A stretch of 64,000 bases of DNA from Oscillospiraceae bacterium (GTDB lineage Bacteria > Bacillota > Clostridia > Oscillospirales > Acutalibacteraceae): assembly GCA_015065505.1 (NCBI GenBank), contig SVQE01000001.1, positions 1-64,000 of the forward strand. The letters are read 5' to 3'. A program made the position numbers and the translations under genes. Position 1 is the first letter of the stretch; each line of letters starts with the position of its first letter. Shown here in pieces: positions 32,434 to 37,024 of this stretch. Under the pieces are notes generated by a model. That model was not told where the DNA came from, did no database searches, and saw only the letters and a list, made by a program, of their open reading frames with translations.

Positions 32434-35139
32434 ATGAGAATTTCAAAGAAAATTTTAGCTTGTGTTCTCGCTGCTTTAATGGCTATTGCAATGATGCCTT
32501 TCACAGCATCTGCAGCTACTGTTGAAGTTAATGATGCAGATAGCTTTGAGGCTGCTGTTGCAGCTGCAAACGCAGGCGACACAATTAAGCTTACTGGCGA
32601 TATTGATTTAACTAAGTATCCTGCATACGGTTCAGCAGGTTCTATGCACTATATTGATATCAGCGGCTTAACAGTTGATCTCAGCGACCACACAATTACT
32701 ATTGGCGGACGTTGGAGCACACTCTTTACCGGTACAAACGGTAAAATTATGAACGGTACATGCGTTGGTACACCGTCACCTGCTAATTATCAGTACGGTT
32801 TATATATTTGGGGTCCCGGTAAAGGCGACCTTGCTAATAGCGGCGGAGCAAGCGCAAGCATTGTTCTTGAAGACCTCACTCTTAACTACGGTCTTCACTG
32901 CTGGAATGCCAATGTAACTGTTATCGATTGTAATGTAACAGGAAGTAACGCATACTACGGCGTATGGGCTGACGAAAACTCAAATGTTACTATCGAAAGC
33001 GGTAACTTCACAACAGGCGGCGCAGCAGTTATCGGTTGTGCAACATCTTCCGACGGACAGGGACACATCAATGTTGAAGGCGGTAACTTCACTGTTCCTG
33101 CAGGTAAGCCTCTTGTTTTACCAGCAAGCTCAAGCAGCGTTCCCGAAAACGTTCAGATTTCAGGCGGTACATTCAAGAACGCTGATGACAGTGCTTACGC
33201 TGTTCTTGCACAAAACATTGCAGACGGTGCAACTATTACCGACGGTGTTGTTACTCAGGAATATGTTGCAAAGATTGGCGATACATACTATGCAACCCTT
33301 ACTGCTGCAATCAGCGCTGCAACTGCAGGCGACACAGTTACATTACTTGCAGACACCAGTGTTAACACCGGCTCCAGTGCAAGCAGCAGATATGCTATTT
33401 CAAAGTCATTAACTATTGACGGTGGCAATCACACAGTTTCTATCAATAACCGCGGTTTCGGCGTTGGTATGAACGCTTCCTCAAATATTGATGTTACTTT
33501 CAAAAACATCACCATCACCAACCCCACCAACGCAGGTCGCTGCGTTGACACACGCGGAAATCTTAATTCGCTTACTCTTGATAATGCAACTCTTGAGACA
33601 ACCGGTAAATCGGGATACTTACAGCCCCTCACAATAGGCGGCAATCAGGCTTCAACTGCAACGGTTACCGTTAAGGACAGCGTTATTAAGACCAGCGATG
33701 ACGGATCTAAGGGCTATGCAATCATCACCTTCAACCCGGTTGCTATGAATATCACAGGCAGCACAATCAAGGGTTGGGCTTGCATTTATGCAAAGGGAGT
33801 TGATGGTTCCGCAGGCTCTGCAGGTTCAACCTTCACTGCTACCGGCAGCAATTTTGTTTCAAAGAATACGAATTCCGGTTTAACCAATGCTTTTGGTACA
33901 CTCGTTGTTGAAGATTCTGATATTGATTTTGATATTACAAATTGCAATATCTCCATTGATGGTGAAGCTAACCATCAGTATCTCTTTACAAATAACGTTG
34001 AATATCTTAGACAATATGTAGACCCGAATGCAGAAATTGAAGATGTTACCGTTGCTCTTGGCGAAGGCAATAATGTTGATCTTAAGGCAATGGGCGATTT
34101 CACAGTCGACGCAACTGATGATGTAAAACTTGAAATCAGCGGCGGTTATTTCAGTAAAGTTGTACCCGCAGAATGCTGTGCTGACGGTTATGCTGCAATA
34201 GCAACTCCCGATGCAAGCGGCAAGTATACAGTTGGTAAGCCCAACGACGGTGCAAACATCACTGTTGCAGATGAAATCAGCCAGAATTTCTACATTGATG
34301 AGGATTTCTACGGTGAAAACGCATATGTTGCAGTAACATACAACACAAATACCAATGTTGAAGAATCAGCAACAATCGGCACCGAAATCACTCGTATGGG
34401 CGACCTTCCGGTATTAAGCACAAGCGGTGATTATGACGGAAACCGTATCATTTCAATCACTCAGGCACCTGCTCAGGTAACCGAGAATGTTGAAATCAAT
34501 GTTTATGCTTCTCAGGCTGATGCACAGGCAGGAACAAATGCTGTTAAGACACTTACCTACAGCACATATGATTACTGCACAACAATTCTTGAAACACCTA
34601 ATGCTGATTTAGGCGCAAAGGCTACTGAGCTCAAAGAGCTTGCTAAAACAACTCTTGACTACGCTGCAGCTGCTCAGACATATTTCAACTACAACACTGA
34701 TAATATGGCAACAGCAGACAACGCAGGAAATGATTTCTACAATGATGTTCAAGACACTGAATTCGTGAATGTTTCCGCACCGAACTTTGGCGGCTTATTC
34801 ACAAGCTTAACAGTTGTTGTTAAATCAGACCTTGAAATCAATCTTCTTACAAAGACTAATTTCAGCTTTAATTCATACAACTATAGCCCCACAAAGGGCG
34901 GCAGCAGATTCGGTGTTTCAACACATGTAAACGGTGACTACAAGGTTCTTCACATTGCAGGTATTGAGCCCGCAAACATGGATGAAAACATCACAGTATA
35001 CACTTCAAACGGTAATGTTGATATAACAGCAAACGCAATTATGAAGATTTTATCAAGGACCGGCAATGCAAATTTAGCAACACTTGCTAAGGCAATGTAT
35101 CGCTACGGTCAGGCTGCAGAAGCATACTTTGCAGATTAA
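32434..35139 (+). CDS. Secreted beta-helix surface protein with conserved Clostridial C-terminal domain
   Basis: The ATG at 32434 has AAGGAA ten bases upstream and starts a textbook signal peptide (ILACVLAALMAIAMMPFTASA). The track start at 32401 is a TTG ahead of it. Two pectate-lyase-like beta-helix blocks follow, each introduced by a 'FEAAVAAANAGDTIKLTGDI'-style repeat (about residues 30-270 and 285-540). The C-terminal domain (about 640-901) contains YAAAAQTYFNYNT and ATLAKAMYRYGQAAEAYF. I associate this helix pair with secreted proteins of gut Clostridia but cannot name the family. There is no sortase motif. It is likely adhesive or glycan-binding. It is followed 15 bp later by a mini-protein gene in the same transcript. 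Confidence 0.75.
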   Translation: MRISKKILACVLAALMAIAMMPFTASAATVEVNDADSFEAAVAAANAGDTIKLTGDIDLTKYPAYGSAGSMHYIDISGLTVDLSDHTITIGGRWSTLFTGTNGKIMNGTCVGTPSPANYQYGLYIWGPGKGDLANSGGASASIVLEDLTLNYGLHCWNANVTVIDCNVTGSNAYYGVWADENSNVTIESGNFTTGGAAVIGCATSSDGQGHINVEGGNFTVPAGKPLVLPASSSSVPENVQISGGTFKNADDSAYAVLAQNIADGATITDGVVTQEYVAKIGDTYYATLTAAISAATAGDTVTLLADTSVNTGSSASSRYAISKSLTIDGGNHTVSINNRGFGVGMNASSNIDVTFKNITITNPTNAGRCVDTRGNLNSLTLDNATLETTGKSGYLQPLTIGGNQASTATVTVKDSVIKTSDDGSKGYAIITFNPVAMNITGSTIKGWACIYAKGVDGSAGSAGSTFTATGSNFVSKNTNSGLTNAFGTLVVEDSDIDFDITNCNISIDGEANHQYLFTNNVEYLRQYVDPNAEIEDVTVALGEGNNVDLKAMGDFTVDATDDVKLEISGGYFSKVVPAECCADGYAAIATPDASGKYTVGKPNDGANITVADEISQNFYIDEDFYGENAYVAVTYNTNTNVEESATIGTEITRMGDLPVLSTSGDYDGNRIISITQAPAQVTENVEINVYASQADAQAGTNAVKTLTYSTYDYCTTILETPNADLGAKATELKELAKTTLDYAAAAQTYFNYNTDNMATADNAGNDFYNDVQDTEFVNVSAPNFGGLFTSLTVVVKSDLEINLLTKTNFSFNSYNYSPTKGGSRFGVSTHVNGDYKVLHIAGIEPANMDENITVYTSNGNVDITANAIMKILSRTGNANLATLAKAMYRYGQAAEAYFAD

Positions 35140-35154
35140 GGAGGAGAGGCAATT

Positions 35155-35286
35155 ATGAACAAAGAATACAAAGAACCTATGTTTAAAGTTGTTATCGCCT
35201 CCGCACAGGATGTTTTAACAGCTTCATATGAACCCGGTACATTTGAAATTGAGCCTGTTGATATTGGCTCAATTCCTTTGGACTAA
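35155..35286 (+). CDS. 43-residue mini-protein with FKVxI...QDVxTxS motif (copy 1)
   Basis: Too short for the ORF track. It has an excellent AAGGAGGAGAG ribosome site 15 bp after the surface-protein stop and ends just before a strong terminator, so it is a real member of that transcript. The sequence contains PMFKVVIASAQDVLTASYEP and an acidic, Pro/Asp-rich tail. A paralog is encoded at 36813 (IFKVIITQSQDVITTSAD). There is no signal peptide and no Cys. I recall similar short Clostridial proteins ending their core in DVITTS, but I cannot assign a function. A leader-peptide-like, RiPP-precursor or regulatory role is conceivable. Confidence 0.72.
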   Translation: MNKEYKEPMFKVVIASAQDVLTASYEPGTFEIEPVDIGSIPLD

Positions 35287-35294
35287 TTAAAAAA

Positions 35295-35330
35295 GAAACA
35301 CGGTTGGCGAAAGCCAGCCGTGTTTTTTTA
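35295..35330 (+). terminator. Terminator after mini-protein copy 1
   Basis: ACACGGTTGGC pairs with GCCAGCCGTGT around GAAA, followed by T7. Confidence 0.9.
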
Positions 35331-35374
35331 GTTGCAAGCCACTAGCTTCGCCGATGGTGAAGTAAAGAGGACGC

Positions 35375-35690
35375 GTCTATTCGTTCGCCATGGGGACGCA
35401 CCTCCGAACGAGATTCAAGGAACAACGCCGTTTGGAGAGGAACGTCCCCGTGTGCTGTGGAGGGAACGCCCGATTCGTTCGCCGATAGGATTGCGTCTCC
35501 AATGATACAGGGGGACATTCCTTCGCAGACGGTGTGTCCCCCCCTGTGTCATACAGACTGCGCGATAAATCCTCACTTGCCGCAGGCAAATACGTATACA
35601 GGGGTCTGACCCCTGTATACGTTCAAGTATTTATCTCGTTGGGGCGAAGCCCCCACATATGTATATGGGGTCAGACCCCATATACAATTT
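35375..35690. repeat. Cluster of REP-like hairpins, no gene
   Basis: This gene-free stretch contains several near-perfect palindromes: CGTATACAGGGGTC with its complement (about 35591-35619), GTATATGGGGTC with its complement (35660-35684), TGGGGC-GAA-GCCCCA, and an imperfect GACACAGGGGG-type stem. The shared core GGGGTCAGACCCC is a known style of bacterial REP palindrome. GC is clearly higher than in the neighbouring genes, suggesting inserted DNA. Confidence 0.6.
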
Positions 35691-35794
35691 GCCTAACACC
35701 TAAAACCTAAAAAACAGTTGATTTATTATATAAAATATAATAGAATATAATATAATCTAAAGAAGTGATACGGTTTGGAGAGAAGTAGTAAATA

Positions 35795-36838
35795 ATGAGC
35801 AAAGACGAAAACAAGATTGAAGAATTAGAAAGCAAAATCGAAGAATTAAAAAGTCAGATTGAAGCTTTAAACGAAAAGCAGGAGGCTGCTTCAAAAGAGG
35901 GAAACGCTGACGAAGAGGCTGAAGAGAGCGAAGATGCCGAAGCTGAAGAAATCGCAGAGGGTGAAGAAGCCGAAGGTGAAAGCGCTGAAAAAGAGCAGAA
36001 AAAGGAATCATCTGTAAAGGGAAATCAAGCCTCATTGTTTTCAAGCGACACTGTAACCGTTTTCAGCGCAGTTGCAAACAGCGAGGAAATGGAGCATCAA
36101 CACAGAAGAGCCGTTGCAGGAAGAATGGCAATAGTTATGAGCATTTTAACCGTTATTGCAACAGCCCTCAGATTTGCTTCATTTAGGCTGCCGTTTCTTC
36201 CCGATTTTCTTACGATGGACTTCTCATCGCTTCCCGAGGTTATTGCTTCAATTGCCTACGGTCCGATTTTCGGCGTTATTATAATAGTTATTAAAAACAT
36301 TATATATATAGCAGTTAAAATTAAGTCGCTGAGTATTCCTGCAGTTATAACCAATATTGTTATAAATTCATTCTTTGTTTATATAACGGGTGCGTTTTAT
36401 TCAAGAAGAATGTTCCCCTTAGACCCCGAATTTGAACAGCCGCAGAAGGATTTAAGAAGGCTTCATATTCTCAAAGGCGGCACTGTTGCATCCATAATCG
36501 TTGCTATCGGTTCGTTTTTCCTTGCTAAGTTTGTAACCTTCCCGGTTATGTTTAAATATTATTCGGGCTACACCCCTGAATACATTATTTATTTGTATCA
36601 GCAGGCACTCGACAAGGTTAACGCTATGCTTCCCGGAAAGCTGCAGGGAATAATAACAACCGTTCCGTCTCTTAACAGGGGCATTGCATATTTCAATGTG
36701 CCCCACACTTTCTTTAAGTATTTTATAATAACTGTTTTGGCAGCTATTATTTATAATTTCATAAGCCCGTATCTGCATTTCAGATCGGCTAACCCCAAGG
36801 AGGAAGAAGAATATGAAATACATCAACCCGATTTTTAA
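35795..36838 (+). CDS. ECF transporter S component (RibU-like) with acidic coiled-coil extension
   Basis: Residues 1-110 form a strongly acidic Glu/Lys coiled coil (EELESKIEELKSQIEALNEK, then EEAEESEDAEAEE). The rest is a six-helix S component with the family hallmark FLTMDFSSLPEVIASIAYGPIFG. S components bind a vitamin or precursor and dock onto the shared EcfAA'T engine; this motif resembles the riboflavin-binding RibU group. No riboswitch is visible upstream to confirm the ligand. The long N-terminal extension is unusual. Its last 26 bases overlap the start of mini-protein copy 2. Confidence 0.75.
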   Translation: MSKDENKIEELESKIEELKSQIEALNEKQEAASKEGNADEEAEESEDAEAEEIAEGEEAEGESAEKEQKKESSVKGNQASLFSSDTVTVFSAVANSEEMEHQHRRAVAGRMAIVMSILTVIATALRFASFRLPFLPDFLTMDFSSLPEVIASIAYGPIFGVIIIVIKNIIYIAVKIKSLSIPAVITNIVINSFFVYITGAFYSRRMFPLDPEFEQPQKDLRRLHILKGGTVASIIVAIGSFFLAKFVTFPVMFKYYSGYTPEYIIYLYQQALDKVNAMLPGKLQGIITTVPSLNRGIAYFNVPHTFFKYFIITVLAAIIYNFISPYLHFRSANPKEEEEYEIHQPDF

Positions 36839-36959
36839 AGTTATTATCACTCAATCACAGGATGTTATAACAACATCTGCGGATGACGAAATAATAAACG
36901 GAAACAATAACAACACCGTTAAACCCGGTAATTACGATACGCCGATTATAAAAATTTAG
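36813..36959 (+). CDS. 48-residue mini-protein with FKVxI...QDVxTxS motif (copy 2)
   Basis: This short frame is missing from the ORF track. It starts inside the 3' end of the ECF gene, with AAGGAGGAAGAAG just upstream, and stops before a hairpin repeat and terminator. Its N-terminus (NPIFKVIITQSQDVITTSAD) aligns with copy 1 at 35155, with the FKV-I-QDV-T-S positions conserved, while the tails diverge (Asn-rich here). Two independent copies, each last in a transcript with a strong ribosome site, support a real family. Confidence 0.72.
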   Translation: MKYINPIFKVIITQSQDVITTSADDEIINGNNNNTVKPGNYDTPIIKI

Positions 36960-36986
36960 GCATTAGGGAATCGAACCCCTAATGCC
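36959..36986. repeat. Palindromic GGCATTAGGG repeat with TCGAA loop
   Basis: GGCATTAGGG and CCCTAATGCC form a perfect ten-base stem around an eight-base loop containing TCGAA. Related copies follow the stop codons at 27498 and 43786. On the minus strand it reads like a tRNA T-arm plus acceptor end (GGGGTTCGATTCCC). Confidence 0.55.
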
Positions 36987-36989
36987 TGA

Positions 36990-37024
36990 GGATTAAGGCT
37001 AAGCTCAGCCTTAATCCTTTTTTA
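36990..37024 (+). terminator. Terminator after mini-protein copy 2
   Basis: GGATTAAGGCT pairs with AGCCTTAATCC around six bases, followed by T6. Confidence 0.9.

Follow-up and report, generated by a model that had tools for sequence, protein, structure and literature searches.

The window, a stretch of 64,000 nucleotides from a 2.3-Mb draft genome of an Oscillospiraceae bacterium (G000; 95 contigs), encodes two mini-proteins that are very probably precursors of linear and probably phosphorylated RiPPs, in a system akin to LPP (Linear Polyphosphorylated Peptides), with enzymes expected in trans and precursors that are dispersed and coupled to surface proteins. Their family of peptide precursors, not catalogued before, has up to 16 members per genome. 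New here is the architecture, in which many dispersed precursors are each paired by translational coupling with a surface protein of their own, and in which the enzymes apparently act in trans.

Both frames translate to the 43- and 48-residue peptides given in a preliminary description of this DNA, and the near-perfect AAGGAGG site before each and the strong terminator after each were found as reported (Table 1). Terminator 1 was overlooked by a pattern scan, as its stem absorbs the T-run, and was recovered by folding. The mini-proteins share Y-x2-P-x-F-K-V-x-I followed by QDV[IL]T[TA]S, and a loose-motif six-frame scan of the window returned them as its sole matches. The earlier picture of a shared N-terminal motif with differing tails holds for the motif but only in part for the tails, which are unequal in length and contain PGTFEIE and PGNYDTP, with PGx[FY][DE] common to both. 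No Pfam, NCBIfam or PHROGs model matched either mini-protein (a sub-threshold SLH match had E 0.12), and a literature search with the peptide strings found no paper. Mini-protein 1 starts 15 nt past the stop of a gene for a 901-residue protein that is secreted, as had been proposed, but whose beta-helix label has no Pfam or NCBIfam support; no Pfam family matched it, and its C-terminal domain is common to the partner proteins of the genus. Mini-protein 2 overlaps an ECF transporter S-component gene, again as described, by 26 nt. This second partner is 36% identical to an ECF protein on contig C72 that lies directly upstream of a kinase-RRE pair, which explains the apparent oddness of an ECF partner.

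Table 1. Features of the two mini-protein loci, in window coordinates
Feature	Position	Strand	Basis and remarks
Secreted partner 1, 901 aa, signal peptide MRISKKILACVLAALMAIAMMPFTASA	32434..35139	+	Inspection and crude signal classifier; C-terminal domain profile A9
AAGGAGG ribosome site, mini-protein 1, overlapping the stop codon of the secreted gene	35138..35144	+	Sequence; most copies share this layout
Mini-protein 1, proposed RiPP precursor, 43 aa, MNKEYKEPMFKVVIASAQDVLTASYEPGTFEIEPVDIGSIPLD	35155..35286	+	Profile E 7e-16 in own genome
YKEPMF, RRE-binding-type leader motif YxxPx[hydrophobic], mini-protein 1	35167..35184	+	Y and P near-invariant in 86 copies; motif meaning from PMC13381572
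Ser24 (Tyr+19), predicted phospho-acceptor, mini-protein 1	35224..35226	+	Ser in 85/86 copies at fixed spacing; phosphorylation inferred
Intrinsic terminator 3' of mini-protein 1	35292..35329	+	-26.5 kcal/mol, z -10.1 (folding)
Partner 2, ECF transporter S-component with charged N-terminal region	35795..36838	+	PF12822
AAGGAGG ribosome site, mini-protein 2	36797..36803	+	Sequence
Mini-protein 2, proposed RiPP precursor, 48 aa, MKYINPIFKVIITQSQDVITTSADDEIINGNNNNTVKPGNYDTPIIKI	36813..36959	+	Profile E 4e-22
YINPIF, RRE-binding-type leader motif, mini-protein 2	36819..36836	+	
Ser22 (Tyr+19), predicted phospho-acceptor, mini-protein 2	36876..36878	+	Phosphorylation inferred
Tail motif NYDTPIIKI, mini-protein 2	36930..36956	+	Near YDTP[IV][IV]P[IV], which small secreted proteins carry at their mature N-terminus
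Double hairpin terminator 3' of mini-protein 2	36958..37019	+	-38.4 kcal/mol, z -7.5

Homologues are abundant in the same genome, in relatives and across the class. A single-sequence search with one mini-protein found 12 copies in the window's genome; a profile search gave 19 matches there, 13 of them at E<=5e-9, and a wider profile 16 copies at E<=1e-3, with the precursor genes spread over at least eight contigs. The family is present in 19 of 60 relatives, often in multiple copies, and class-wide in 29 of 292 genomes from 20 genera; two of these, G253 and G074, carry 13-14 copies each. At one locus (L089:4332-4761, minus strand), one secreted protein is followed by three different mini-protein genes in tandem.

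The genus consensus, M-x-K-x-Y-x-E-P-E-F-K-V-V-x-x-x-x-E-D-V-[IL]-T-[TA]-S, precedes a tail 9-44 residues long in which Gly, Thr, Ser and Asn abound. The leader Tyr of YxxPx[FVIL] was kept in 80 of 85 scored copies and was otherwise Phe, while Pro was found in 84 and Asp in 82 of the same 85. Ser stands exactly at Tyr+19 in 85/86 copies and is never Thr, as counted by a regular expression that accepted either residue, Ser or Asp, at a spacing of 19 or 20; one copy missed by the expression was read by eye and has Ser at +19 too. Each invariant leader residue is encoded by several synonymous codons, and leader pN/pS is about 0.37 across 43 genus copies, with pS near saturation, showing constraint at the protein level. 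The leader-plus-variable design suggested earlier, as in modified-peptide precursors or small regulators, is supported, with modification as a predicted property. Cys-based RiPPs (lanthipeptide, sactipeptide) were ruled out, as none of 83 tails contains Cys.

Every precursor gene is coupled in translation to a partner of its own, a secreted protein or an ECF membrane protein, and the gap between the upstream gene and the mini-protein gene has a median of 15 nt. Of the distinct complete upstream genes, 61 in all, 51 were scored as encoding a signal peptide, compared with 73 of 437 further genes in these loci (17%; p 3e-30). The scoring used a crude hydrophobicity rule, and 51/61 is a low count: signal peptides are seen by eye in L067, L083 and L157, and the start of L066 was mis-picked. 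Partner domains are mixed (LRR_5, Flg_new, Big_2, pectinesterase-like, beta-helix, lipase), and most partners have none. Stop-codon readthrough from the secreted gene into the mini-protein was rejected because the gaps vary in frame and carry their own AAGGAGG.

Candidate enzymes for such precursors are encoded elsewhere in the window's genome. On contig C72 (L172), an ECF S-component, an HprK-like kinase and a stand-alone PqqD-like RRE lie in a row, the kinase (L172:4857-5570) directly preceding the RRE. The kinase family gave weak matches to the ScmC and HprK_rel models, and a search with it found two named relatives, in uncultured Eubacterium MAGs from red deer and goat reticulum. On C66 (L171), an RRE adjoins an NTP-transferase (NTP_transf_5, E 4e-42), and on C95 (L220) a SipW-like SpI peptidase (G000:C95:29558-29992) is directly followed by an MsbA-like ABC exporter, assigned by sequence inspection; SpI relatives at linked loci match TIGR02228 and SipW models below cut-off. 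Stand-alone RREs number three in this genome and are present in 21 of 22 panel genomes. Their profile matches TbiB1, LppB, TfuB1 and PbaB1 in the PDB (5v1u/5v1v, 6jx3, 9x8z, 9x90; LppB is 9x8z) at E 4e-10 to 4e-5; these are sequence homologues that serve lasso or clustered LPP precursors. LppB residue D70 hydrogen-bonds the leader Tyr (PMC13381572), and from local DxxxF spacing it appears to match a near-invariant Asp of the RREs described here.

Beside the C72 copy, the window's genome has RREs at L170:6948-7211 (C55, alone) and L171:4644-4904 (C66, with the NTP-transferase beside lepA); both have counterparts in members of the genus that lack strong mini-proteins. Beside kinase genes stand proteins whose N-terminal region has charged KSKYxRD-type repeats (L172:3583-4845, L197:7490-8626, L198:7503-8618, L199:7131-8201, L200:4900-6054, L219:8743-9996), and window partner 2 is of the same type; the L172 protein, a relative of the window's ECF gene product, has a weak PF12822 match.

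It was observed that the kinase tracks the mini-proteins. A C72-type kinase (E<1e-100) occurs in 14 of 37 genus genomes: in 12/12 with strong mini-proteins versus 2/25 others (Fisher p 4.9e-8, uncorrected for shared ancestry). Across the class, it is found in 28 of the 29 genomes with mini-proteins and in 59 of the 263 without (Fisher p 1.2e-15, likewise uncorrected for shared ancestry). The sole mini-positive class genome without the kinase, G292, has a single mini-protein in which YENA replaces YxxP, so that the motif Pro is lost. PqqD presence alone does not discriminate, since RREs also occur in relatives without strong mini-proteins, whereas the HprK-like kinase does; in genus g1, the SpI-ABC pair, other RREs and a second HprK are likewise found in genomes without strong mini-proteins.

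Physical linkage between precursors and enzymes is evidence independent of these co-occurrence tests. Seven of about 150 mini-proteins, a total summed by hand from the relatives and class searches, lie <=3 kb from a kinase, compared to 0.4 expected (p 2e-7), and many are far from any enzyme gene. Gene orders at linked loci are secreted-mini-HprK-RRE in G028, secreted-mini-HprK-RRE-SpI in G054, secreted-mini-HprK-RRE-SpI-NTase in G058, secreted-mini-ECF-NTase-HprK in G001 and mini-RRE-ABC-SpI-HprK-NTase in G031, with near-complete clusters in G099 (secreted-mini-HprK-RRE-SpI-ABC) and G138 (secreted-mini-HprK-RRE-SpI-NTase-ABC). In G031, a 133-aa precursor-like protein (L206:9287-9685) heads a cluster of RRE, ABC, SpI, HprK and NTase genes; the leader-motif Tyr is not conserved at its start (MRITNPEINVILFSNEDVIATS).

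The closest published counterpart is the LPP RiPPs (2026), whose precursors of 35-200 aa begin with YxxPxVLxHQxIxFETxxS and have variable C-termini (PMC13381572). Their enzymes, as in lppAKBSDN of Paenibacillus alginolyticus, are SpI, RRE, HprK-like kinase, NTP-transferase and MsbA-like exporter; the residue that LppK modifies is the Ser at core position 3 (Tyr+18), and modification is lost when it is changed to Thr (PMC13381572). The set described here is alike in its discrete RRE, HprK-like kinase, SipW/archaeal-type SpI, NTP-transferase and MsbA-like exporter, and its precursors are partly alike, in their N-terminal YxxPxV leader, acidic residue, Ser near Tyr+18/19 and highly variable C-terminus. 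The leader differs, reading YxEPEFKVV...EDVITTS with no HQ and with Ser at +19. Published LPP systems have 1-3 precursors within one cluster, mostly in Bacilli and in capsular polysaccharide loci (PMC13381572), whereas here up to 16 precursors are scattered genome-wide, each behind a secreted protein. The enzymes of the window's genome are split among C72, C66 and C95 and form no single cluster with the precursors; G058, G099, G138 and G031 do have enzymes and precursor clustered in the LPP manner. An ECF S-component beside the kinase is absent from the published LPP core genes, and the main text of PMC13381572 is silent on Clostridia, on secreted or surface proteins and on dispersed precursors.

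By analogy, the N-terminal YxxPx[F/V]xV strand would act as a leader bound by the discrete PqqD-like RRE; YxxPx[L/V/I/A/F/Y] is the motif recognised by discrete lasso-type RREs (PMC13381572). The HprK-like kinase would then phosphorylate the invariant Ser at Tyr+19, the NTP-transferase may modify it further, the SipW-like peptidase would remove the leader and the MsbA-like ABC exporter would release the variable core. The enzymes on C72, C66 and C95 would serve about 13-16 precursors in trans, and translational coupling would yield one peptide per surface protein made.

A functional tie between peptide and surface protein is further proposed, for which a tentative reading, possible though doubtful, is a genome-wide peptide-tagging system: many surface proteins would each be co-translated with a phosphorylated RiPP that escorts, anchors or marks its partner at the cell surface, with one shared enzyme set in trans. 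A stronger form, compatible with the LPP-like explanation and unlikely in our view, is that the modified core forms a covalent link with, or an anchor for, the surface protein encoded alongside or the cell-wall glycan. One-to-one coupling with surface proteins and the capsular polysaccharide setting of published LPP clusters speak for attachment, and so does the finding that some small secreted proteins carry YDTP[IV][IV]P[IV], the tail motif, at their mature N-terminus; LPP cores, however, were observed as free peptides in a heterologous host (PMC13381572). A six-frame search of 2.4 million residues found YDTP[IV][IV]x[IV] or YETDP[IV]P[IV], a pattern chosen post hoc from examples, confined to three mini-protein tails, including that of mini-protein 2, and four small secreted proteins, where it comes just past the signal peptide. 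The match, if real, suggests that the tail also acts outside the cell. The four proteins are L172:5865-6329, L174:6500-6955, L187:5452-5940 and one on the minus strand of L063 (G000:C79); mature N-termini GDYDTPVVPI, SDYETDPVPI and GDYDTPIIPV among them mirror some mini-protein tails, and three of the four lie directly after or beside an HprK-RRE pair.

The mini-proteins could instead stay in the cytosol as small chaperones or regulators of the secreted protein with which they are co-translated, the N-terminal strand binding that protein or the secretion machinery. Tight translational coupling would fit such a role, and the g1 partners share a C-terminal domain ending YGxAAxAYF, found in mini-positive genomes, which is followed by a mini-protein in 33 of 37 C-terminal occurrences and not in four, in a set partly picked by mini-protein presence. 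The upstream proteins have no common domain across the class, though, while the N-terminal motif stays constant, and a chaperone would not predict the kinase-RRE co-occurrence and clustering; we consider this improbable.

That the mini-proteins are lasso peptide precursors is very improbable and was rejected: the YxxPx[L/V/F] leader and discrete RREs would suit it, as would the HprK-like kinase and NTP-transferase of paeninodin-type clusters, but the transglutaminase-like leader peptidase B2 (PF13471) exceeds its cut-off in 0/14 positive genomes, inspection of the linked loci found no macrolactam cyclase, the rumen lasso precursors given in PMC7533575 carry W where Y stands here, and the Gly/Thr/Ser/Asn-rich tails have no fixed core start. 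The paeninodin-like phosphorylated lasso peptides do share the RRE, kinase, NTP-transferase and Y/WxxP leader logic, with WxxP in place of the present YxxP and the phospho-Ser at the C-terminus, whereas the Ser proposed here lies at the leader/core boundary.

The biological roles of the LPP and paeninodin RiPPs are unknown (PMC13381572). Under the LPP-related reading, cluster-based RiPP mining misses most precursors of such systems, because they lie far from the enzymes and fall below usual ORF length cut-offs. An LPP-type enzyme set is found here with a bicistronic precursor and surface protein across many Clostridia genera. This combination points toward surface biology and less to simple antibiosis, a first hint of what these orphan peptides do.
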